DNA from: Candidatus Zixiibacteriota bacterium
GTDB lineage: Bacteria > Zixibacteria > MSB-5A5 > GN15 > PGXB01
DNA length: 33,414 nucleotides
NCBI GenBank assembly: GCA_026397505.1
Contig: JAPLUR010000080.1
Coordinates: forward strand, 1 to 33,414
Direction of reading: 5' to 3'
The notes below the pieces were generated by a model. It worked only from the letters and a program-made list of their open reading frames with translations, was not told the origin of the DNA and did not search any database. The translations under genes and the position numbers were made by a program. This document shows positions 19,506-30,928 of the stretch, one piece after another (the stretch's first letter is position 1; every line of letters begins with the position of its first letter).

Positions 19506-20594
19506 CTATTGCGACTTATATTTTTCGAACAATTGACCCCATTCCGTCCGGGAATATTTCCGAATAATGGCCTTGCCTATTAACGGGTACCAGAACCAAT
19601 CATGGTAAATATTGCTGGCCAGCGGCGCCCAGACAACCAGAGGGGAGTGAAGAGCAATCTTTTCGAGGAAACGTAGCGGGCCTTTCCGAAGGAGTTGGTC
19701 GCCCCAGATCACAAATGACTTTTTGGTCTTGAATCCAAAATTAAGCCGCGATATGTCATACCCAATCACCTCAATTTGCGCCGGGTCGGCCACACCGAGA
19801 CCTCGTTCATGACACATTCTCAGGTAAGGAATGCTCATCGGATCAAAGCCCATGATCTTGGCCGCAATCGCGTCTATCGCAACCGAATCGGCCGAGGCCA
19901 GCAGGATATTCTTGGAATGCGGGGTCATGGTCCGGGGACCGGCGCCGTCGCCGCAAACGGTGCCGTCCATGACGGCCAGAATGGATGGATGAAGTTCCTT
20001 CTGCATGATCATCAGGTCGACCAGAACCTCGTGCATATGTTTATGAGCATAATGCCGCACCTCTTTGAGCAGACCGCCGAAGGAGTTTTTCACCGCCCCG
20101 GTGGTCGTGGAATGGCCATGGGTTTTCACCGTCGGCAGATGGATTACCTGCCTGCCAATGTACATTTTGGGAATCTCAATTCCCTCGGGGAAAATCTCAT
20201 TCAGCCGGAGAAGCTTTTCCTTGAAGTGGTAGACAACCCAATCCACATCCGGCAGCGGCGTAAAGTCGAGACCATATTTTCGAAACACCGGCATCCAACA
20301 GTTATTTCTGGCCCCCTTAATCGGGTTGGTTACCACGGTCTTATTTTCCAGCGGAAAGAGGTTCTTTCGGGAGAAACCATCTTCAATTAGAGTCTTGATC
20401 ACTCCCTCAACCTGCCAGGGCTGAGAGGAACAGGCCGGAAAATATTTGGTCCAGGAGAGATTAAGTTTGATTAATGTCTCCCGTTTGGGATCGATAATCT
20501 GGCGGTAATCGACCAATTCCAGAAGAGTCCGATAATCATCGAGAACTTTGGTGGAATCGGTTTTTACCGCGGCGACCTTGCTTCTATACGTCAT
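19506..20594 (-). CDS. DUF362-domain protein, end of exopolysaccharide operon
   Basis: The product is 362 residues and has the DUF362 pattern: an N-terminal part with LIKLNLSWTKYFPAC, a middle part with VIHLPTVKTHGHSTTTGAVKN and SFGGLLKEVRHYAHK, then VMDGTVCGDGAGP and SADSVAIDAIAAKIMGFDP. Many DUF362 proteins carry a C-terminal ferredoxin domain; none is visible here, and only scattered cysteines are found. The biochemical activity of the family is not established. Its ATG overlaps the deacetylase stop by 4 nt (ATGA), so it is translated with the exopolysaccharide genes. A role in modifying or synthesising the polymer is possible, but rests only on this position. A short hydrophobic stretch near 310-325 does not clearly form a membrane helix. 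Confidence 0.8.
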   Translation of the reverse strand: MTYRSKVAAVKTDSTKVLDDYRTLLELVDYRQIIDPKRETLIKLNLSWTKYFPACSSQPWQVEGVIKTLIEDGFSRKNLFPLENKTVVTNPIKGARNNCWMPVFRKYGLDFTPLPDVDWVVYHFKEKLLRLNEIFPEGIEIPKMYIGRQVIHLPTVKTHGHSTTTGAVKNSFGGLLKEVRHYAHKHMHEVLVDLMIMQKELHPSILAVMDGTVCGDGAGPRTMTPHSKNILLASADSVAIDAIAAKIMGFDPMSIPYLRMCHERGLGVADPAQIEVIGYDISRLNFGFKTKKSFVIWGDQLLRKGPLRFLEKIALHSPLVVWAPLASNIYHDWFWYPLIGKAIIRKYSRTEWGQLFEKYKSQ

Positions 20595-21454
20595 CGGTCA
20601 AATCCAATCGGTTTTCTTATCATGCTTTCAACATAATTCCTAGCCGGGCAGAAGTCAAACTCGCCGAGGAGCTTGTGCAGTTTGCGGAGCAGTGTGTGGA
20701 TGGAACCATATTGCCGGTATTTCTGTAAAAAGGTCAGTCCCTTCATCCGCGGCAGTTTCGGGTCCAATTCCCAGGGGTGGACATAAACGAGGGCCGGGCG
20801 GCCGGCGCGGTTTAATCTGCGAATTATTCCCGCCGTGTACCATAGCGGGGAATGGCGAAGATATCCCCCGCCGCAGACGGGAAGATTCTTGCCCAGGATA
20901 TTCAGGGTTGTCGCCGGAATTTCAAAGAGAGGGCGGCCGCTGTCCAGCTTCATACGAAAAGTATCCCGAGGTGACATCGGATCCCCATACAGGTCATGTT
21001 TGACGGGAAAGATCGAGGAATCATATAGAAATCCGAGGTCGGCCAGGATTTCGAAGGCCCATGGGGTGGAGGAGTTTATCGACCAGCTCGGCGCCCGATA
21101 TCCGACCGGCGTAATACCGCAGGCTTTTCTTATGGCCGCAATCGCCATTTCGGTATCGGAGCGGAATTCCTCTTTCGATATTTTGCTCACCATGATATGA
21201 CGATAGCTATGGCAGGCGATTTCATGCCCGTGAACGGCAATCCGCTGAATAAGGTGCGGGAAGCGGCCGGCAATCCATCCCAGTACAAAAAAGGTGGCGC
21301 GAACGTTATGGCTTTCAAATAGCTTCAAGAGCTTCTCGGTATTCTCAACCACATGGGATTCCAGATCATCCCACTGCCGGTAGTCGATATTCTCCTTGAG
21401 ATTTTCGACCACAAACCAATCTTCCAGATCGACTGTCAATATATTGGTAACCAT
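20591..21454 (-). CDS. Polysaccharide deacetylase with DUF3473 C-terminal domain (XrtA/EPS type)
   Basis: The enzyme is predicted to remove N-acetyl groups from an exopolysaccharide. The product is 287 residues from the ATG at 21454. NILTVDLEDWF is the first NodB motif (Asp9/Asp12 region), HEIACHSYRH the second (metal ligands His82 and His86), and YRAPSWS the third. The C-terminal part GGGYLRHSPLWY and VYVHPWELDP is the DUF3473 extension typical of the deacetylase found in exosortase/PEP-CTERM polysaccharide loci. No exosortase is in the window. The ATG at 21454 begins right at the family's start, has AAGG about 7 nt upstream, and is preferred over the TTG at 21499. It lies 45 nt after the kinase gene and overlaps the DUF362 gene by 4 nt. 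Confidence 0.92.
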   Translation of the reverse strand: MVTNILTVDLEDWFVVENLKENIDYRQWDDLESHVVENTEKLLKLFESHNVRATFFVLGWIAGRFPHLIQRIAVHGHEIACHSYRHIMVSKISKEEFRSDTEMAIAAIRKACGITPVGYRAPSWSINSSTPWAFEILADLGFLYDSSIFPVKHDLYGDPMSPRDTFRMKLDSGRPLFEIPATTLNILGKNLPVCGGGYLRHSPLWYTAGIIRRLNRAGRPALVYVHPWELDPKLPRMKGLTFLQKYRQYGSIHTLLRKLHKLLGEFDFCPARNYVESMIRKPIGFDR

Positions 21455-21499
21455 AGAAGACCTTGCACTACCCGGCGGGAAAGCGACTCCTTCCGGCAA

Positions 21500-22219
21500 C
21501 TATTTACCGGAGGGTTTATAATGGTAGCCGTAATAGTTGCTGTTATAGTAATAAGGCAGAGTATGTTCAAGATTGTTGATCACGACACCCAAAATTTTGG
21601 CTTTCTGCGGAGCCAGCAGGCTGCAGGCGCGATTGACTACGCCGCGGGGAGTCGCCCCGGCTTTGACCACCAGAATGACACCATCAACCTCCTCCAGAAC
21701 CAGAAGCGGGTCCGAAACCGGCACCAGCGGAGAGGAATCAATCAAAATCAAATCATAATAAAATTTCATTTCCTCAACTATCCGGTGAATGGCCGGGCCG
21801 TTAATCAGGTCGGACGGATTGGCCACGGCTTTGCCCGCCGTCATAATATCCAGCTTCTCGAAATCGGTCGTTTTGATATTGTTTCTGGCAGCAGTTCCAT
21901 CGGCCAGGACTTCCGATAGGCCGTTTTCACGCGGCAGGGAGAAAAGGCGATGAATGGTCGGTCGCCGCAAGTCAAAATCAATCAACAGGGTTTTGCGGTT
22001 CTTATGGCGTACGGCAGTCATGGCCAGAAAGGAGGAAACAATCGATTTTCCCTCCGAGGTCATTGCCGATGTTACCAGAATCGCCCGCTTCTCACCCAGG
22101 CTTTTGACATTGTTGACATTATGAAGCAGCCGCCGAAACTCCGACGCTTCCGGCGCCTCCGGATCAAAATAATCTATTATTGAAAGGGTTTGGCCTTTAC
22201 TCAAAGGAGCTCCTGTCAT
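21500..22219 (-). CDS. BY-type tyrosine autokinase domain protein (CpsD/CapB-like)
   Basis: BY-kinases control polysaccharide chain length and export by autophosphorylation of a tyrosine-rich tail. The product is 239 residues from the ATG at 22219. Walker A is TSAMTSEGKS (50-59), Walker A' LLIDFDLRRP (78-87) and Walker B DLILIDSSP (156-164). The tail (LPYYYNSNYYGYHYKPSGK) has seven tyrosines. It is the stand-alone cytoplasmic kinase type, which needs a separate membrane activator (Wzz/CpsC), and none is visible here. The ATG overlaps the stop of the upstream TPR gene by 4 nt (ATGA), favouring it over the GTG at 22279. Relatives in exosortase loci are called XrtA-associated tyrosine autokinases. 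Confidence 0.92.
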   Translation of the reverse strand: MTGAPLSKGQTLSIIDYFDPEAPEASEFRRLLHNVNNVKSLGEKRAILVTSAMTSEGKSIVSSFLAMTAVRHKNRKTLLIDFDLRRPTIHRLFSLPRENGLSEVLADGTAARNNIKTTDFEKLDIMTAGKAVANPSDLINGPAIHRIVEEMKFYYDLILIDSSPLVPVSDPLLVLEEVDGVILVVKAGATPRGVVNRACSLLAPQKAKILGVVINNLEHTLPYYYNSNYYGYHYKPSGK

Positions 22220-23340
22220 CCATGTTTTTCCGATATATCCACAATGGCGTCGGAAAGTTTCAAATAATAATCCTGGCACAGATCCAGAGAACGCTGGGCT
22301 TTCAAGAGTTTGGGATTTATTTCAAGAGTCTTTTTGAAGTAATCAGTACTCTTCTGCCAGTTAAACCGGGCCTGATGCAGATAGCAGATCCCGAGGTCAT
22401 AGTACAGGTCAACATATCCCGGATTTCTGTTGATTTCATTTTCCAAAAACTTAATGCGGTCGGCAAGATTGCTTTCGGCGATCCAGTCGGTGTAAATCAG
22501 AAAACGATGGAAATAAGAGGATCTTTCCCGGCGAAGTTGCTCCTTTTTTGCTTCCCTGGCCCCTTTTAAAAGCATATAGGCCCGTTTGAGCTCTTTGTTG
22601 TTTAGAGAGGCAATGGCTTCATCGTAGGGCGCAGATTTGTATCCCGGGTATATCAGAACCGCTTTCTTAAGAAGATCGGAGGTTTTTCCGGCTAGGTCGG
22701 CGTAAAGGTTAAAATCCTCTTTGGTAACGGCGTTGAGAATATACGTCAACGCGAGATTGAAATAGGCATCGGCATAATAGATATTCTGCCGGATTGCCTC
22801 ATCAAACTCGATCAGTGCCCGTTTGCAGGAACCGGCGGCCAGATAAGCCTCACCCAGAGCATTTCGGTAATCGGCAAAATTGGGGCGAAGCTCGACCGCT
22901 CTGACACCGGCCTTGATCGCCGGCTCGACATGCCCGAGGGCCGTTTCGGCCTGGGCCAAATAGTAAAACGCCTCGTGATAATCATGATTCAGTTTCACGG
23001 CCGATTGAAACAACTGCCGTGCCTGGGTGTACATCCGTTTGTAGTACAGAGCAGTGCCGAGATGGAACATCATCTCCGGGCGCCCCTGGGCAATGACCTC
23101 CTTGAAGCTCTTCAGGAGATATTCCAGTTCCGATTTCTTCTCGCCGTGGGTCGCTTTGATCAGCTCGAGAATTTCCGGCTCGCCCATCTCTTCCGAATGA
23201 GGCATAATACTGGAATCCAGCAATTCGCCATTGGCGAACAACGACGTCTTAATAATACCTTCCCGGGTATCATTGACCGTCTGTATCAAGAATTCCTTAT
23301 CGTCTTCGACAATACGGCTATCGAGTCGATACGATTCCAT
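22216..23340 (-). CDS. Cytoplasmic TPR protein of the exopolysaccharide operon
   Basis: The product is 374 residues without signal peptide or membrane helix. The first 75 residues form a distinct part with short strands and a helix (IKTSLFANGELLDSSI, then EILELIKATHGEKK) that I cannot assign. TPR repeats follow, at about 85-225 and again at 290-350, for example AFYYLAQAETALGHVEPAI and DLYYDLGICYLHQARF. The ATG at 23340 is chosen because AAGGAGA lies about 8 nt upstream; the TTG/ATG-like starts further up lack support. It sits between the export protein and the kinase, overlapping the latter by 4 nt. In many loci a Wzz-type activator occupies this place, so it may serve as an adaptor for the kinase. 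That is a hypothesis from gene order only. Confidence 0.78.
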   Translation of the reverse strand: MESYRLDSRIVEDDKEFLIQTVNDTREGIIKTSLFANGELLDSSIMPHSEEMGEPEILELIKATHGEKKSELEYLLKSFKEVIAQGRPEMMFHLGTALYYKRMYTQARQLFQSAVKLNHDYHEAFYYLAQAETALGHVEPAIKAGVRAVELRPNFADYRNALGEAYLAAGSCKRALIEFDEAIRQNIYYADAYFNLALTYILNAVTKEDFNLYADLAGKTSDLLKKAVLIYPGYKSAPYDEAIASLNNKELKRAYMLLKGAREAKKEQLRRERSSYFHRFLIYTDWIAESNLADRIKFLENEINRNPGYVDLYYDLGICYLHQARFNWQKSTDYFKKTLEINPKLLKAQRSLDLCQDYYLKLSDAIVDISEKHG

Positions 23341-23439
23341 ATTATCTCTCCTTGCCAAAATATAATTGGCTCGATTTTTTAAATGAAAATTCAACAAACA
23401 TAAGATGACTTCTTCTTCAGAAATGCTCGGCGATCGCGG

Positions 23440-24468
23440 TCAATTCCCTCCCAATCCAAATAGAGACAGCCGGTCGGCAATGAGAATCAGGGAACCGATT
23501 CCCCCAAGCATTCCAATCCAGCCGGCCATGGAGTCTATGCCCAGAAAGCCCCGACCTCGCCGCGAGAGAACAATGGTATCCTCTGGTCTGAGGAAGTAGC
23601 GCCCCGGTCTTCCGGTTTCCTGATATTTTTTCAAGTTGACTTTTAGAATCTGAGCATAACGGCCATCCTTGGTAACCACCCGGACATTTTTGAGGTCGGC
23701 GAATTCGGAGGGACCACCGGCCAGAGCGATGGCATCAAGCAAATCCGTGTTTTTTTCAAGCGTCATGGCTCCGGGGCGGAGGATTTCACCCATAATATAG
23801 AACAGGTTTTTCTGGGTCGTCTGATCGCTTAGGGTGGTGGCCGGCAAACCGGCCGGGGTTCTGGGAATTTCGATTGTGTCGCCGGGTCTGATTTCGGGAA
23901 GGTCCTTCATCCGTCCGGAGGTCACCAGGGCCAGAACATTGACCACTTCAACCTTGCCGGCATCCCCTCCGCCCCGGATAATCATCACCCGACTCAGGTC
24001 GCCGAATTCGGTCACCCCGCCCGCTTCATTGATGATACTCCAGAGGTCGGGAATTTTCTCATAGGTTCTTCGGCCGGGGGATTGAATCTGCCCCGAAACA
24101 AATACTTTCAGATAATTGTATTCAATGACCCGCACGACCGCCTGCGTGATGGCGCCGTTGAATCGGGAAATCTGCTTGACAATTTTCTTTTCGAGGTCGG
24201 CGGTGGTCAGGCCGGCGGCTTCGATCTCCCCGGCGATATCCAGCGATATTTTCCCATCCTCGCGGATCTTAACGACCGCATCAAGCGTGCGATCCTGCCA
24301 GAATTTCACTTCCAGCACGTCACCGGGACCGACTTCGTACGATTGCGCCGAAGAAGGCGCGGTCAGACCCAGCCATAGCAACCCCAGGCCAATAATAATT
24401 TTGAAAACTTCCCTGTGCACTTTTAATATGCTTCCTGATAATAGATTATAGTCTTCCATGACTTCCAT
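23440..24468 (-). CDS. Outer-membrane polysaccharide export protein (Wza/SLBB family)
   Basis: The protein is predicted to form the periplasmic and outer-membrane export channel for a polysaccharide. The product is 342 residues. A signal region (about 21-42, ending SSAQS) is followed by the Poly_export domain (YEVGPGDVLEVKFWQD, 44-115), a first SLBB domain (about 119-200, with VFVSGQIQSPGRRTYE) and a second (about 223-300, with FYIMGEILRPGAMTLEKN). The last 35 residues contain a hydrophobic helix (about 309-335), as in Wza, where this helix crosses the outer membrane. No lipobox is seen, unlike E. coli Wza. Two ATGs (24468 and 24459) are possible; the second gives a shorter leader. It is the first gene of the exopolysaccharide block. 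Confidence 0.9.
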   Translation of the reverse strand: MEVMEDYNLLSGSILKVHREVFKIIIGLGLLWLGLTAPSSAQSYEVGPGDVLEVKFWQDRTLDAVVKIREDGKISLDIAGEIEAAGLTTADLEKKIVKQISRFNGAITQAVVRVIEYNYLKVFVSGQIQSPGRRTYEKIPDLWSIINEAGGVTEFGDLSRVMIIRGGGDAGKVEVVNVLALVTSGRMKDLPEIRPGDTIEIPRTPAGLPATTLSDQTTQKNLFYIMGEILRPGAMTLEKNTDLLDAIALAGGPSEFADLKNVRVVTKDGRYAQILKVNLKKYQETGRPGRYFLRPEDTIVLSRRGRGFLGIDSMAGWIGMLGGIGSLILIADRLSLFGLGGN

Positions 24469-24528: not shown

Positions 24529-26175
24529 TCAGCTCTTGTGGCTGAATTCGGACTGATACATGCGGCAACAGTTTCGTCCTTCCGATTTGGCTTTCAAGAG
24601 CGCCATATCGGCGGTATCAATGAGATTATCAATGCTATCGGCATCCAGGGGGAAAACCGCTCCCCCGATCGACACCGAATATTTATGTTTCTGGCCGCTT
24701 CCCTCGATGACGCAGGGGGTAATGGCGATTTTTTCCTGAATTCTCTCCATAAATAGATGAGCTTTTTCCCGACTCGTTTCGGGCATTATCAGGCAGAATT
24801 CATCGCCGCCGTACCTGGAAATCACATCATTGGAGCGAACCGATTCCGTCAGCACGGCTCCAAAACATTTCAGCAGGTTATCCCCGGCCAGATGACCATA
24901 TTTGTCGTTGATATTCTTGAGGTCATCAACATCGAATATCAATAAGGCCAGATTGCGGCCGTACCTTTTGGCTCTCATAAACTCTTCCCGAATCCGCTTC
25001 TGGAAATAACGGAAATTGTAGATTCCGGTCAGGCCATCGGTATAAGAAAGCTCCTCCGCTTTTTCGAAGCGACTGACATTCTCGACCAGAGGCAGGGCCT
25101 CCAATTTGAATCTGCGCAGTTTCTCGGCCACTTCATCAACCATCTGTGAACCGCTCCAGGCCAGAAGAGCTTTGCGGTTGTCTGTCCAGGGGAGAGCGGT
25201 CAGATAGCTGATATTCCCATTCTGCAGCTTGCTCCATTTTCCCTCGAGCGCCTGAAAAGACGGCACCGGATTCTTCATATCACATATCTTGTCAGGTTGC
25301 AGGCGGCTGATTATCGAATCGTAATTTTCCTTGAAAATACGGTCGGTTTCTTCATTCAGGTTCCAGCGGACCGAAACCATGGCCTCATTCGGCTCGTCGG
25401 CCCGCACATAAAAAGCCATTCGGGAAAAGCTGCAGTCCTTCCGCAGCCCATTGATCAACTCGGGAATAAGTTCGCGGCTGTTCCGGATGCGGAGGTATTT
25501 CACTAATTCGCTCCCCGATTCCACATCTCTTGAGGAAACGGCCCTTTCCTTGATCTCACCCAATTGCCTGAACCTGTCCTCATACCTTTTTATCTGTTGT
25601 TCCTGAATACCGATATGGTAGGCGGTCGAGAGATTGAAAGCAAGGGCCGTGGATAGAAACTGCAGTTGGCGATTTTCGGGTGGGAGCGAGGTAGAAATAA
25701 AATAGACGCCATATAAATTTTCGCGAAGGTAGGCCGGAAAGAAATAAGCAAATCCGGTCTGCTTGATTATCTTGGAATAATCGGGAGGCAAAACCGACGA
25801 AAGCTCCTCAATCCGCGATATCTGGTGAAACGACTTCAACTTACTCTGCAAATTGGGCGTAAGCCGGACTCTGAAATCCTCCCTTTCGAATCGCTGCAAT
25901 CCGGAATAGTAATTAAGCTCCAGCGCCCCTTTATAATACTTGAGGAAAATTATCTTATCGCAGTCCAGATATTTTTTGAGAATAAAAGAGACTTTGCCGG
26001 CAATATCCTGAATTTTCCCCGCGCGAATATTATTGACCATGGCGGTCACCAATTCATTTATCGCCTCTTCCTTAATAAAGATCGTCCCTCTGGTGCGGCG
26101 ATAGCGGATGATAATGGACGCCGCCAAGACGATCACCAAGACCGTCAGAATAATGATTAAGATTATCTCTGTCAT
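24529..26175 (-). CDS. Membrane-anchored diguanylate cyclase with GAF-like sensor region
   Basis: The enzyme makes cyclic di-GMP from two GTP. The product is 548 residues: one N-terminal membrane helix (about 4-23), then two regions that resemble GAF domains (about 40-190 and 235-345), and a GGDEF domain (about 378-540). The active site reads YGGDEF (455-460) with FDVDDLKNINDKYGH (414-428) as the metal/substrate region. Arg447 and Asp450 in RSND form the RxxD inhibitory I-site, five residues upstream of GGDEF, so product feedback inhibition is expected. No EAL domain is present. It lies 60 nt before the export gene and 61 nt after the STAS gene, in the same direction, so it may link the signalling block to exopolysaccharide output. 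Confidence 0.93.
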   Translation of the reverse strand: MTEIILIIILTVLVIVLAASIIIRYRRTRGTIFIKEEAINELVTAMVNNIRAGKIQDIAGKVSFILKKYLDCDKIIFLKYYKGALELNYYSGLQRFEREDFRVRLTPNLQSKLKSFHQISRIEELSSVLPPDYSKIIKQTGFAYFFPAYLRENLYGVYFISTSLPPENRQLQFLSTALAFNLSTAYHIGIQEQQIKRYEDRFRQLGEIKERAVSSRDVESGSELVKYLRIRNSRELIPELINGLRKDCSFSRMAFYVRADEPNEAMVSVRWNLNEETDRIFKENYDSIISRLQPDKICDMKNPVPSFQALEGKWSKLQNGNISYLTALPWTDNRKALLAWSGSQMVDEVAEKLRRFKLEALPLVENVSRFEKAEELSYTDGLTGIYNFRYFQKRIREEFMRAKRYGRNLALLIFDVDDLKNINDKYGHLAGDNLLKCFGAVLTESVRSNDVISRYGGDEFCLIMPETSREKAHLFMERIQEKIAITPCVIEGSGQKHKYSVSIGGAVFPLDADSIDNLIDTADMALLKAKSEGRNCCRMYQSEFSHKS

Positions 26176-26236: not shown

Positions 26237-26932
26237 TCAGAACCGTTTTCTGGTCTGCCGGGCATACCGAAATCGGGCCCGCCGTGATACCAGACGATGT
26301 TTCCTCAAGATTCTGAAAATTCCCCACCAACTTATGCGAGACGCATGCCCCGATTCCTCAAGCACCAGGCGCAATTCCGAAATAGTATAGAAAGGGTCGT
26401 CCCGTATCGCTTCCAACAGCAACTGCTCCGTTCGGTCGATGGGAAAACCAGCGACCTCGGCCCGGCTGACCTCTTCTCTGCGGGTTGAAAAGGAATCCCC
26501 TCCCGGGGGTAATTCCTTAACGACCGTGCGGACGCCTGCTATCGGGTCTTTTTTTTTTACGGGGTCAGCTTCAGCGGGCGCCCCAAAGGCGGTCTTGGCT
26601 GCGTGGACACTCTCATAGGCAGACAGGATATTATCAAACTCGAGGAGCTCGTAAATTTCATATACGTTGGGAACCATATTGGCCAGTTTGATATCACCCT
26701 TATTTTCCCGAATTTCCTTAATACGAGAGATGAAAATACCCCAGCCGGCCGATGAAATATAATCGACTCCGGCCAGGTCAAGAATGATATGGTAGCGGTT
26801 CCGTTTCAGAAGTCGGTCTAAAACCTCCTCGAGCCGGGTGGCGGTAAGAGTATCAATAACACCATCAACGCGAACCTGGGAAATGCTGTCATCACGACCG
26901 CTTTCCGAGACCGATATCTTAATGTTCTCCAT
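26237..26932 (-). CDS. STAS-domain anti-anti-sigma-like protein with C-terminal winged-helix-like extension
   Basis: The product is 231 residues. Residues 1-110 form a STAS domain with the phosphoacceptor region VDYISSAGWGIF, in which Ser61 aligns with the phosphorylated Ser of RsbV and SpoIIAA. Residues 111-160 are a charged linker with three lysines coded by ten consecutive A residues. Residues 165-231 have a predicted helix-turn-helix pattern: a leucine-rich helix, TISELRLVLEESGH, then WGIFRILRKHRLVSRRARF and a very basic end. This resembles the winged helix at the start of many transposases, and is unusual on a STAS protein. It is next to a kinase-phosphatase fusion that could act on Ser61. 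The ATG at 26932 is chosen over the TTG at 26950; neither has a good ribosome binding site. Confidence 0.8.
   Translation of the reverse strand: MENIKISVSESGRDDSISQVRVDGVIDTLTATRLEEVLDRLLKRNRYHIILDLAGVDYISSAGWGIFISRIKEIRENKGDIKLANMVPNVYEIYELLEFDNILSAYESVHAAKTAFGAPAEADPVKKKDPIAGVRTVVKELPPGGDSFSTRREEVSRAEVAGFPIDRTEQLLLEAIRDDPFYTISELRLVLEESGHASRISWWGIFRILRKHRLVSRRARFRYARQTRKRF
26549..26558 (-). other. Ten-base A tract in the linker of the STAS protein, possible slippage site
   Basis: On the coding strand the linker reads GT, then ten A, then GAC, giving Val-Lys-Lys-Lys-Asp. Insertion of one A leads to a stop after about ten codons (TAA), and loss of one A leads to a stop after two more codons (TAG). 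Either change would release the STAS domain without the helix-turn-helix part. Confidence 0.6.
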
Positions 26933-27022
26933 ATTATCAATTATAACCAATATTTCATAAAAGGGAGATAAAAAAATGGGCGGCCCGACCCCGAATTGGC
27001 CGGCTAACAGGAGAAATCTGCC

Positions 27023-29029
27023 TTACTCAAGAGTCTCTGATTCGAGGGGTTGAATTCCCCCCAATGGGCTCTCGCCGCTCGAACAGACCGTTATGAAGGT
27101 AATGTCATCATTTTGGACGGCCATGCCGGCATGCTGGTCAATGTCGCCCATAACCATCTGCGATATCGCCCTGGGATCCTTGGTCCGGCTCCGGACTACC
27201 TTTTCGTTGAATAGATTGCAGAGACGTTCCAGGCCATACTTTTCTTCCAGCCGATTCATCGATTCGGTAATCCCGTCGGTATATATAAAGAGAATATCAC
27301 CGTCCTGAATATCGACACTCTGCTCGACTAATTTCTGAGCAAAGCCGTTATCCGTGGCCAGAGGCAACCCCAACGGTACCCCGGGAGGATTGAGCAGCTC
27401 CGCCCCGTTTCCATTATGTCGACAGTATATGAGGGGATTATGTCCGGCGGAAACAAAATTGATTCTCCTCTTGGTCGTATCGAAGACCGCCAAGAAAATA
27501 GTGATAAATACGCCCGGCGGGATGTCATCCTTGATGAGATTATTGACCGCCACCAGAATATCGTGAGCCGATAACTTATTTCTGGCCTCGATACGAATGA
27601 CGGTACGAAGCATTGACATCACCAGCGAAGCCGGAATCCCTTTACCCGAGACATCGGCTACCAGAAGGCAGTAGTTCTCCCGGTCAATCTGGAAAACATC
27701 GTAGAGATCGCCGCTGATCCGGGAGGCGGCGCGATAAAATGCATCCAGTTTAAGGCCGGGAATTTCGGGAAGTTTGGCGGGCAACAGTGTCTTCTGAATC
27801 TGGCTGGCCACCTCGATTTCTTTGGCCACTCTCTCCCGCTCAACGATATTTTCGTGGTCGCGGCGAAGACGGCTCATCATTTCGTTCAGCGCTTTGGAAA
27901 TCTCGAAATATTCCTCCACCCCTTCCAGAGGAAGTTCGGTCTCGATATCGCCGGAACTGAATTTCCGCACCCTTTCGGTGATTCGGACAATTGGGCTGAC
28001 AAAATAGCTGGATAAAAGATAGATGCCGCCGATCCCGATGAGAAGTCCGATTACGGTGAGAAAAATAATAGTGCGTCGTTCGGCGTTGATTTGCCTGATA
28101 TACGGCTCACTCGAATAAGTGATATAAACTCGGCCGCTCACCCGGTCGCCGTTTTTTATGTAATGAATCTGATAATTCATCTCCTGCCCATTTTCAACGT
28201 AGGTCTGAAGGCGCCCCACCCTGGTCGAATCAATGTCCTTGGGCGGGACATATTTCTTGCGCAGGTTTCTGATATCTCTGGTATCAGCCAGAATGGCATC
28301 GGCCGAGTCGGTGATAACCAGCGTGGTCAATTCGGGATTGGCCCGAATATAACTCATCGCCAGTACATCGAATTCAACATCGGAGCGACGGTTGAGAATA
28401 TAACCCGCTCCCTGCGCCGCCACAGTTTTGGAAAGCGAAGCGACCGTCCCGTGCAGATGTTCTTCGATTCGCTTGACGCTGCGATTATTAATAATAAAAT
28501 AGGCTCCGGCGATTATGGTCAGCATGATCATGAAAGTGTAAACGGAGAATTTTACTCTTAAATTAAACATCCGCCCCATAAACAGGCGGGTCTTCTCCGG
28601 CTGCCGGGTGATGAGCTTGGACATGCGCAATTCATTGAACCCGGGCGTGGATATGTACTCCACCGAGTCCATAATCTTGTTGATCATGTAGAAGCCCAGC
28701 CCGCCTTTCCTTCCGGAATCGACCAATTTCTTCAAATCGAGCTTGATGGCTCCATCGGGTTGAAAAGAGCGCCCGGTATCAATCAGAGAGAAAATGATGC
28801 GGCGTTTGAAGATGATGATTCTTATCCGAATCGTCCCCTTTTCATAAAGATAGGCATGCCGAATAATATTGGTGACCCCTTCCTCCACCGCCAACGTGAC
28901 GGCGCTGACATCGCGGCGGGAGAGATTGGCATTAATACATGATTCCCGCACCAGGTACTGGATGGAAGGGAGGTATTTATCTTCCGCCTGATATTCGGCG
29001 TTGATTTCCTTAATGGGTCTTCTAAACAT
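27023..29029 (-). CDS. Fused RsbW-like ATPase, transmembrane sensor, HAMP and SpoIIE/PP2C phosphatase
   Basis: The product is 668 residues. Residues 8-140 form a HATPase_c_2 domain of the anti-sigma kinase type, with EEGVTNIIRHAY (Asn54 in the N box), LIDTGRSF (G1) and GGLGFYMI (G2). A membrane helix (about 157-181), an extracytoplasmic sensor region of about 140 residues, a second helix (about 321-342) and a HAMP domain (343-395) follow. The C-terminal SpoIIE-type PP2C domain (about 420-650) has metal-binding Asp441 (SGDLYD), Asp459 (ADVSGKG), Asp585 (YTDGITE) and Asp641/642 (NDDITF). Both catalytic parts face the cytosol. The likely substrate is the neighbouring STAS protein, in a partner-switching cycle with kinase and phosphatase on one chain. 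No sigma factor is encoded nearby. No clear ribosome binding site precedes the ATG. Confidence 0.92.
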   Translation of the reverse strand: MFRRPIKEINAEYQAEDKYLPSIQYLVRESCINANLSRRDVSAVTLAVEEGVTNIIRHAYLYEKGTIRIRIIIFKRRIIFSLIDTGRSFQPDGAIKLDLKKLVDSGRKGGLGFYMINKIMDSVEYISTPGFNELRMSKLITRQPEKTRLFMGRMFNLRVKFSVYTFMIMLTIIAGAYFIINNRSVKRIEEHLHGTVASLSKTVAAQGAGYILNRRSDVEFDVLAMSYIRANPELTTLVITDSADAILADTRDIRNLRKKYVPPKDIDSTRVGRLQTYVENGQEMNYQIHYIKNGDRVSGRVYITYSSEPYIRQINAERRTIIFLTVIGLLIGIGGIYLLSSYFVSPIVRITERVRKFSSGDIETELPLEGVEEYFEISKALNEMMSRLRRDHENIVERERVAKEIEVASQIQKTLLPAKLPEIPGLKLDAFYRAASRISGDLYDVFQIDRENYCLLVADVSGKGIPASLVMSMLRTVIRIEARNKLSAHDILVAVNNLIKDDIPPGVFITIFLAVFDTTKRRINFVSAGHNPLIYCRHNGNGAELLNPPGVPLGLPLATDNGFAQKLVEQSVDIQDGDILFIYTDGITESMNRLEEKYGLERLCNLFNEKVVRSRTKDPRAISQMVMGDIDQHAGMAVQNDDITFITVCSSGESPLGGIQPLESETLE

Positions 29030-29098: not shown

Positions 29099-30928
29099 TT
29101 ATTTGTTCTGCAGCCTCAGTCTCGCCTGCTCGATATTATTCATCGTGTTCTTGTTTCCGGGATAATATTTGAGCACTTCCTCCCAGAGCTTGATAGCATT
29201 GGCATAGTCCTCTTTGCGGAAATACTCGAGCGCCGACAGATAAATCTTCCAGACTCTTTCATCTTTTTGGAGGTCCTGCAACTCGGTGGATTCTTTCATG
29301 AGAAGAGCGATTCTCCCCTCGTAATCCCGGGCGACTTTATTCTGGGGGTCAATCTTAAGGACTTCATCGAACCGTCCTTTGGCATCAGAGTAGAGACCCG
29401 AGGCAAAGAGCTCCGCGCCTTTATTGATGAGCTGCAGTTTATTCAATTCGGTCCCGTCTTTGGCAATCAGTTGCTTGACCTCCACATTGCCCGGAGAAAG
29501 TTCCATAACACGATTATAAGCGGTCAGGGCGTCGGCGTAGCGCCCGTCACGATCGGCACGGGAGGCCTCGTCCATCATTCTACCGATTTCCAGGTCGCGG
29601 CCGGCGGTGACCTGATCCCTTAAAGCAAGGAATTTCTGATCGTCCGGCGACCTGCCCAGCCCGAGGTCGATAATATCAAGAGCCGCCGCAAAGGAGCCCT
29701 TATTGAAGAACAGCTCCGCTTGGGAGTAATATCCGTCAAGAAGCTGCTGCGTCATATCGGCCTGCGGCCGGGCTTTTATTTCCTTCTCGGCCAGAGCCGA
29801 TTTCCGAAGTTCATCGATCTGGTTGACTCTATGACGGGTGTCGCGGTCATCCTCGTTAAAGGCCAGCGCCCTTTGATAATAGGCGTATGCGGAATCAAGA
29901 GAATTATTATGGTAGTACTTGTCGGCAAGCTCTTTAAAGAGACGAAATGACCGCTTGCGGTCTTCCAGTATCAGGGAACTTCCCCGCGCACTCTCAAATT
30001 CCTTTTCGCGCCGGATTTTTTCAGAGACCGAAGTGCCCAGCCGGATCGACAGCCCCAGCCGATGCGAATCGGAAAGACCATCCATGAATTTGTAGGCATA
30101 ATCGAAGCGCAATTTTTGATAGATAATACCCAGTCCGAATGTCAGGTTGTCGCGATCGTAGCCGGCGCGCAAAGATAGATAATCGCGATAAATAGATTCG
30201 GCACCCAGATGAAGTTTGACTGAACGATTTTCGCCCTTCTCCAGCCCCAGACCGATATTATGGCGGAACCCGCTCCCCAGGCGCACATCCTTGGCACCGA
30301 TGCCGGCAACGACCGTCATGGGCGTTATTTCGAGAGCGCTTCCCAATCGCAGACGGGGTGCAATGATATCCTGGAACGAAATTCCAGCCGATATATTTTT
30401 TATGATGCGGCTGTAAAATGAGATATCCAATCCGACGCCATAGGTCGAATTTCTATCAAGTGTTTGATTGACTATTTTCAGACCCGTGCCGAAAGAAAAA
30501 CCTTTTTCCAGCTTATGCCCATATCCTAATATCAGTTGCCAGGTGGCATAGGAGAATTCCCCAACTTCATTCCAGTCCTCACGCCGCATGATATCGCCCG
30601 TGCCGAGCCGCATGAAAGAAACACCGAATCCACCCAGTTTGGGATGGGGATAGACAAAAGAGGCGACATCATATACCGAGCCCTCATAGAGGGTCACATG
30701 CATCAGATTGATTTCCTGATTATCCAGAAGAGTGAGGGCCGCCTGGTTCCAGTAAATAGCCGAGGCGTCATCGGCCAGACCGACAAAGCCACCGCCCATT
30801 CCCAGCGCCCGCACCCCGGAGCCGATGGAAAATTGCGATTCTCTTCCGGCATCACCGGCCCCGACCGACCCGGCCGTGAACAGCATGAAAAAGATGGCGA
30901 TTGCTATTTTGTGCCACGGTGCCTTCAT
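29099..30928 (-). CDS. PorV/PorQ-type outer-membrane barrel fused to TPR repeats
   Basis: The product is 609 residues with a signal peptide (about 1-24). Residues 30-305 form an outer-membrane beta-barrel of the PorV/PorQ (UPF0164-like) type, marked by GVRALGMGGGFVGLADDASA and IYWNQAAL, and by alternating strands up to SDSHRLGLSIRLG. Residues about 320-609 are TPR repeats such as AYAYYQRALAFNEDDRD and AADALTAYNR-like units. A barrel and a TPR array on one chain is not the plan of PorV or PorQ in Porphyromonas, which are barrel only. PorV shuttles type IX cargo to the cell surface, so this fusion may serve a comparable role for the sorting-tail proteins here. Its ATG overlaps the upstream gene's stop by 4 nt, so the two are translated together. 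Confidence 0.88.
   Translation of the reverse strand: MKAPWHKIAIAIFFMLFTAGSVGAGDAGRESQFSIGSGVRALGMGGGFVGLADDASAIYWNQAALTLLDNQEINLMHVTLYEGSVYDVASFVYPHPKLGGFGVSFMRLGTGDIMRREDWNEVGEFSYATWQLILGYGHKLEKGFSFGTGLKIVNQTLDRNSTYGVGLDISFYSRIIKNISAGISFQDIIAPRLRLGSALEITPMTVVAGIGAKDVRLGSGFRHNIGLGLEKGENRSVKLHLGAESIYRDYLSLRAGYDRDNLTFGLGIIYQKLRFDYAYKFMDGLSDSHRLGLSIRLGTSVSEKIRREKEFESARGSSLILEDRKRSFRLFKELADKYYHNNSLDSAYAYYQRALAFNEDDRDTRHRVNQIDELRKSALAEKEIKARPQADMTQQLLDGYYSQAELFFNKGSFAAALDIIDLGLGRSPDDQKFLALRDQVTAGRDLEIGRMMDEASRADRDGRYADALTAYNRVMELSPGNVEVKQLIAKDGTELNKLQLINKGAELFASGLYSDAKGRFDEVLKIDPQNKVARDYEGRIALLMKESTELQDLQKDERVWKIYLSALEYFRKEDYANAIKLWEEVLKYYPGNKNTMNNIEQARLRLQNK

Follow-up and report, generated by a model that had tools for sequence, protein, structure and literature searches.

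A predicted transmembrane kinase/phosphatase sensor of Zixibacteria encoded beside a STAS-HTH protein, a diguanylate cyclase and exopolysaccharide genes

Introduction

The RsbU/RsbW/RsbV and SpoIIE/SpoIIAB/SpoIIAA systems of Bacillus subtilis distribute a PP2C phosphatase, a kinase and a STAS partner over separate proteins and have a sigma factor as their target. Other bacteria join the two opposing enzymes. Vibrio fischeri SypE, which controls polysaccharide biofilm, acts as one chain on a single serine of the STAS-only protein SypA by switching between kinase and phosphatase modes. It is a response regulator driven by a phosphorelay, with an N-terminal RsbW-like serine kinase, a central receiver domain and a C-terminal PP2C domain. 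Pseudomonas aeruginosa HsbR and Shewanella CrsR also carry both enzymes on one chain and target STAS proteins (HsbA and CrsA), in the order REC-PP2C-kinase and without a membrane sensor, and their kinase domain additionally binds RpoS. Mycobacterium tuberculosis Rv1364c has PP2C (RsbU) and RsbW domains joined in a single chain (PDB 3ke6). All of these proteins fuse the two enzymes, but as soluble proteins. The SiaABCD operon of P. aeruginosa instead encodes a TM-HAMP-PP2C sensor, the separate kinase SiaB, the STAS-like SiaC and the diguanylate cyclase SiaD. SiaC, which is phosphorylated on Thr68 and for which an HTH domain is not reported, acts on SiaD, and HsbA similarly binds and acts on the diguanylate cyclase HsbD.

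Here we describe a locus on the minus strand of a 33,414-nucleotide stretch of DNA from a Candidatus Zixiibacteriota bacterium (the window) that encodes a membrane sensor, here called KP, with a predicted kinase and a predicted phosphatase on one chain. The DNA belongs to a metagenome-assembled genome, whose named relatives are nearly all Zixibacteria. A sequence-only reading of this DNA had rested on the premise that these enzymes are separate in known systems, which the fusions in SypE, HsbR/CrsR and Rv1364c contradict, though its description of the locus and the coordinates were correct.

Results

Domain layout of KP

Pfam and hydropathy place an RsbW-type kinase, a membrane helix, a Cache-like sensor, a second membrane helix, a HAMP domain and a PP2C/SpoIIE domain in this order along KP:

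27023..29029, minus strand: KP, predicted dual kinase/phosphatase membrane sensor, 668 aa (Pfam; full-length orthologues in most Zixibacteria)
28616..28987, minus strand: RsbW-type GHKL serine kinase domain, aa 15-138 (HATPase_c_2, E 2.6e-21; RsbW 6m36)
28490..28552, minus strand: TM helix 1, about aa 160-180 (hydropathy; model)
28109..28474, minus strand: sCache-like sensor domain, predicted to be periplasmic, aa 186-307 (Pfam match to sCache_3_2 at E 9e-5, below the cut-off)
28013..28075, minus strand: TM helix 2, about aa 319-339 (hydropathy maximum 2.6, peak at about 319-340)
27863..28015, minus strand: HAMP domain, aa 339-389, with a helical linker after it (PF00672, E 4.2e-7)
27086..27682, minus strand: PP2C/SpoIIE phosphatase domain, aa 450-648 (PF07228, E 4.1e-42; Foldseek)

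The 668-residue protein is matched by HATPase_c_2, HAMP and SpoIIE, and Pfam and hydropathy agree with the earlier proposal that a single chain carries the kinase N-terminal to its first membrane helix and the PP2C domain behind HAMP. Only a short linker without HAMP separates the kinase from the first membrane helix. The kinase sites in the sequence are the catalytic E50, N54 of the N box, D84xG86 of the G1 box and G109-G112 of the G2 box. B. subtilis RsbW (6m36) aligns with KP residues 18-130 (phmmer, E 3e-8) such that the N, G1 and G2 boxes coincide, with its N box matched by E50/N54. The C-terminal part of KP aligns with Rv1364c and SpoIIE (phmmer), and Foldseek matches the fold of the phosphatase to SpoIIE, RssB, SiaA-PP2C and Rv1364c. 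Its metal-binding aspartates are D441 (just ahead of the Pfam match), D459, D585 and D642. The AlphaFold model of KP has a moderate mean pLDDT of 68 and was used for secondary structure and fold matches only; it contains a long helix (145-212) spanning the TM1 region and, in the sCache-like region, a helix followed by strands (pLDDT about 80).

KP shares with SypE the N-terminal RsbW-like serine kinase, the C-terminal PP2C domain and the STAS partner, but differs in having a pair of TM helices, a Cache-like sensor and HAMP. KP is not a SypE orthologue because it lacks the receiver domain. Its locus resembles SiaABCD in combining a TM-HAMP-PP2C sensor, a kinase, a STAS protein and a diguanylate cyclase; yet the system is not Sia, since the kinase is fused to the sensor, and the SiaA model NF038263 matches KP 321-647 at 44.7 bits against a cut-off of 700. 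Rv1364c, in which PP2C precedes the kinase and which is not known to be a TM-HAMP sensor, differs from KP in both respects. What distinguishes KP is that the kinase/phosphatase pair flanks a membrane sensor, which would make the receptor itself the dual enzyme. No description of this arrangement was found in a limited literature search, and our genome survey covered the Zixibacteria.

A STAS partner with an HTH-like domain

As had been noticed from the sequence, the product of the gene next to KP is a STAS protein, and it contains the usual phospho-serine motif:

26237..26950, minus strand: STAS-HTH protein, 237 aa from TTG (PF01740, E 7e-18)
26597..26893, minus strand: STAS domain with the motif DYISSAGWG (Pfam; Foldseek to SpoIIAA, RsbV and TM1442)
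26243..26440, minus strand: C-terminal domain of four helices, winged-helix-like and ending in a basic tail (the domain alone matches HTH_Tnp_Tc3_2 at E 0.0007)

This ORF, which also matches the TIGR00377 anti-anti-sigma model, lies 72 nt from that of KP, or 90 nt when measured to the ATG at 26932, the likely start (231 aa) where most homologues begin in the alignment. The predicted phospho-serine at 26750-26752 had been called Ser61, which is right from this ATG and becomes Ser67 if counted from the TTG; S66 and S67 (TTG count) are kept in 47/47 homologues. Together, KP and its neighbour provide a GHKL kinase with intact boxes, a PP2C domain with metal aspartates and a STAS domain with a phosphorylatable serine, i.e., the components of a partner-switching module with the same folds and predicted activities as those of B. 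subtilis.

The sequence-only reading overlooked the C-terminal HTH-like domain of the STAS protein. Its model shows helices at 171-236 (pLDDT mostly 60-80), and the orthologues share the consensus DPFxTIxEL...GWWxVFxxLRxxxLLSxRSRFRxAR. Weak matches to HTH_Tnp_Tc3_2, HTH_24 and HTH_32 fall among transposase-type and winged HTH families, and a PDB profile search with this domain gave nothing significant (best match E 0.095). Several genomes of family f4 and one of f1 encode the HTH-like part in a small ORF of its own, adjacent to a STAS ORF of 130 aa (in f4, e.g., L076:4601-5283, L110:12435-13138 and L111:8142-8824), while in deeper families the two are fused. That both parts are retained, fused or split, suggests a function for each.

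Conservation and co-occurrence

KP was found in 73/83 Zixibacteria genomes (at least 90% complete; E <= 1e-60), mostly as one full-length chain, and orthologue identity ranges from 73% down to about 30%. The same chain in so many good genomes, and in several single-contig genomes, led us to reject a chance fusion or assembly artefact. A search for full-length relatives on plasmids gave none that covers 80% of the query.

Across 55 homologues, the most distant at about 30% identity, positions E50, N54, H58, D84, G86, G109, G110 and G112 of the kinase are identical throughout, as are D441, D459, D585, G586, D641 and D642 of the phosphatase (G462 in 54/55). The N and G boxes are thus intact and the metal-binding aspartates present, as first read, and a degenerate ATPase was rejected on the grounds of this invariance. 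The unvarying catalytic residues and STAS serines imply that both enzymes are under selection, and identity in 55/55 and 47/47 homologues, respectively, argues against chance.

KP and STAS-HTH also occur together. At a threshold of about E 1e-25, which was chosen after the hits had been seen, both are present in 67 and absent from 10 of 79 genomes (60 close relatives and 19 more distant ones; counts tallied by hand), several double absences being incomplete genomes. KP alone was found in G022 (76% complete) and STAS alone in G063. The association (Fisher p 8e-11, with genomes treated as independent and without correction for phylogeny) bears out the expected link between the two genes. It extends to family f2, in which the STAS gene has been relocated within the genome, and to f17, f18 and part of f16, where it lies on other contigs or elsewhere, while both proteins are missing from the tested genomes of families f11-f13. 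The neighbour of the relocated f2 gene resembles an NtrC-type response regulator in its first 60 residues and length (L085:3298-4635, L091:9423-10775).

A cyclase and exopolysaccharide genes follow, and no sigma factor

The KP and STAS genes belong to a conserved gene order, PorV-KP-STAS-GGDEF-SLBB-TPR-CpsD-deacetylase, whose remaining members in the window are:

29099..30928, minus strand: PorV/UPF0164-like plus TPR protein, encoded just upstream of KP (Pfam; comparison of KP loci)
24529..26175, minus strand: diguanylate cyclase with one N-terminal TM helix and intact GGDEF and RxxD I-site (GGDEF, E 3e-44)
23440..24468, minus strand: SLBB/Poly_export outer-membrane polysaccharide exporter (Pfam, synteny)
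22216..23397, minus strand: TPR protein of the exopolysaccharide block (Pfam, synteny)
21500..22279, minus strand: CpsD-like ATPase of exopolysaccharide assembly (orthologue matches ParA/AAA_31; synteny)
20591..21499, minus strand: polysaccharide deacetylase with DUF3473 (orthologue in locus L100; synteny)

Across 53 KP loci, the PorV/TPR gene lies directly upstream of KP in 50. The first or second gene downstream of KP is STAS in at least 38 (a lower bound, as ORF selection missed, e.g., L078 and L114). The diguanylate cyclase comes next in line at 43 loci and the SLBB exporter at 39. Beyond SLBB come Wzz in some loci and then TPR, CpsD-like and polysaccharide deacetylase genes. The cyclase orthologues conserve GG(D/E)EF, and their RxxD inhibitory site is invariant (43/43).

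The absence of a sigma factor gene near KP, already remarked upon from the sequence, holds for the neighbours examined. The genome has 13 sigma-70 region-2 matches elsewhere and no SigB/F/G-family member (TIGR02980) over the curated cut-off. Without a cognate SigB/F/G-type sigma factor, adjacent or over cut-off, we do not class the locus as a SigB/SigF-type partner switch. The cyclase and exopolysaccharide genes and the HTH-like domain of STAS, all overlooked before, point to an output other than a sigma factor.

Discussion

The reading that we favour, and hold to be reasonably probable, is that KP represents a SypE-like dual enzyme turned transmembrane receptor that operates a Sia-like switch over c-di-GMP and exopolysaccharide. 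Gene order, co-occurrence, conservation, intact active sites and the order of the domains are observations, while we infer the enzyme activities and dimerisation of KP, the sign of its signal and the output. KP is probably a dimeric transmembrane receptor with the RsbW-type serine kinase as its cytoplasmic N-terminus, while the opposing PP2C phosphatase would form the C-terminus, linked via HAMP and the helical linker; signals from sensors are believed to reach PP2C dimers through HAMP and coiled-coil linkers. By analogy with the characterized systems, the kinase would phosphorylate and the PP2C domain dephosphorylate the same STAS serine, Ser67 (Ser61 from the likely ATG). A signal sensed in the periplasm by the Cache-like domain would shift the balance between the two. 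With kinase and phosphatase on one membrane sensor, both reactions could be set by one external signal. A simple idea for how it would reach the kinase is that TM1 and TM2 move jointly in the dimer. The phosphorylation state of STAS would then determine its choice of binding partner. The output is where this model is least secure. The membrane diguanylate cyclase encoded nearby seems the most likely target, with the exopolysaccharide export genes acting downstream of it, since the STAS proteins of SiaABCD and HsbRAD, which come closest in gene content, bind a cyclase and the cluster has a cyclase followed by exopolysaccharide genes. The winged-helix-like domain probably serves a second output that may be DNA-directed or scaffolding.

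It is unlikely that the switch is mainly transcriptional, i.e., that STAS phosphorylation governs DNA binding by the winged-helix-like domain next to a merely co-transcribed cyclase. Most STAS orthologues keep the HTH-like domain and its basic tail, some lineages retain it in a gene of its own next to STAS, and the families matched are HTH families. However, these matches are weak, with the best PDB profile match at the E value given above, some species have STAS and HTH as two proteins, and the related HTH on membrane sensors of deeper families (see below) suits protein contacts as well as DNA. Classical anti-sigma control, with the kinase domain as a membrane-tethered anti-sigma factor for a remote sigma factor and STAS as the antagonist, strikes us as quite unlikely. 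The kinase and STAS do resemble RsbW/SpoIIAB and RsbV/SpoIIAA, the kinase domains of CrsR and HsbR bind RpoS, and sigma factors are present elsewhere in the genome, but the conserved neighbourhood lacks a sigma factor gene and the genome lacks a SigB/F/G-family member over the curated cut-off. We regard it as very improbable that the GHKL domain turns the phosphatase on by binding, in the manner of RsbT, while another kinase phosphorylates STAS. RsbT activates RsbU through binding to its linker, and the genome has other RsbW-like genes; yet the nearest solved match and the family models are RsbW rather than RsbT, STAS has the serine motif, the ATP residues of the GHKL domain are invariant, and KP and STAS co-occur.

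If true, the favoured reading, a SypE-like receptor with a Sia-like switch, would describe a serine-phosphorylation analogue of bifunctional two-component sensors, with one transmembrane protein setting the on and off reactions, and it would become testable how one conformational signal splits between a kinase at the first helix and a phosphatase at the second. It also offers a concrete hypothesis for the control of biofilm or exopolysaccharide in Zixibacteria, a phylum known here from metagenome-assembled genomes only, and would add a STAS effector whose output may include direct binding to DNA.

Deeper families extend and qualify this comparison. Neither STAS nor a diguanylate cyclase adjoins KP in f17, f18 and part of f16, and the link to the cyclase is therefore weaker than that to STAS. 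Deep-family orthologues of KP carry a C-terminal HTH_23/HTH_32 module (L122:3758-6580, L123:4472-7300, L129:7138-10047 and L131:3387-6041). Sensors of 900-1070 aa from these families had been considered as STAS or GGDEF fusions, which was rejected as the extra C-terminus is HTH_23/HTH_32-like. This HTH compares with the HTH-like domain of STAS at an hhalign probability of 77% (single-comparison E 2e-5), and judging from sequence the two modules are probably related. Deeper families also have a gene for a ParA/MinD-like ATPase between KP and STAS that is not there in the window (L122:3001-3780, L123:7297-8088, L129:6398-7141, and others). Rather tentatively, KP could exemplify a phylum-wide receptor class, a serine-based counterpart of the bifunctional histidine kinase. 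Its kinase before TM1 and its PP2C domain behind HAMP would be under the reciprocal control of one periplasmic signal, and the STAS-winged-helix effector driven by such a receptor would link c-di-GMP with exopolysaccharide export and, in deeper lineages, with a ParA-like ATPase.

The PorV/UPF0164-like plus TPR protein neighbours KP more constantly than any other, also at loci that do not have STAS and the cyclase next to KP, and might belong to the signal input of KP. One of the loci compared, L119 (DYGG01000026.1), is labelled Ignavibacterium sp. but matches the Zixibacteria family of the window in sequence and synteny and is probably mislabelled.
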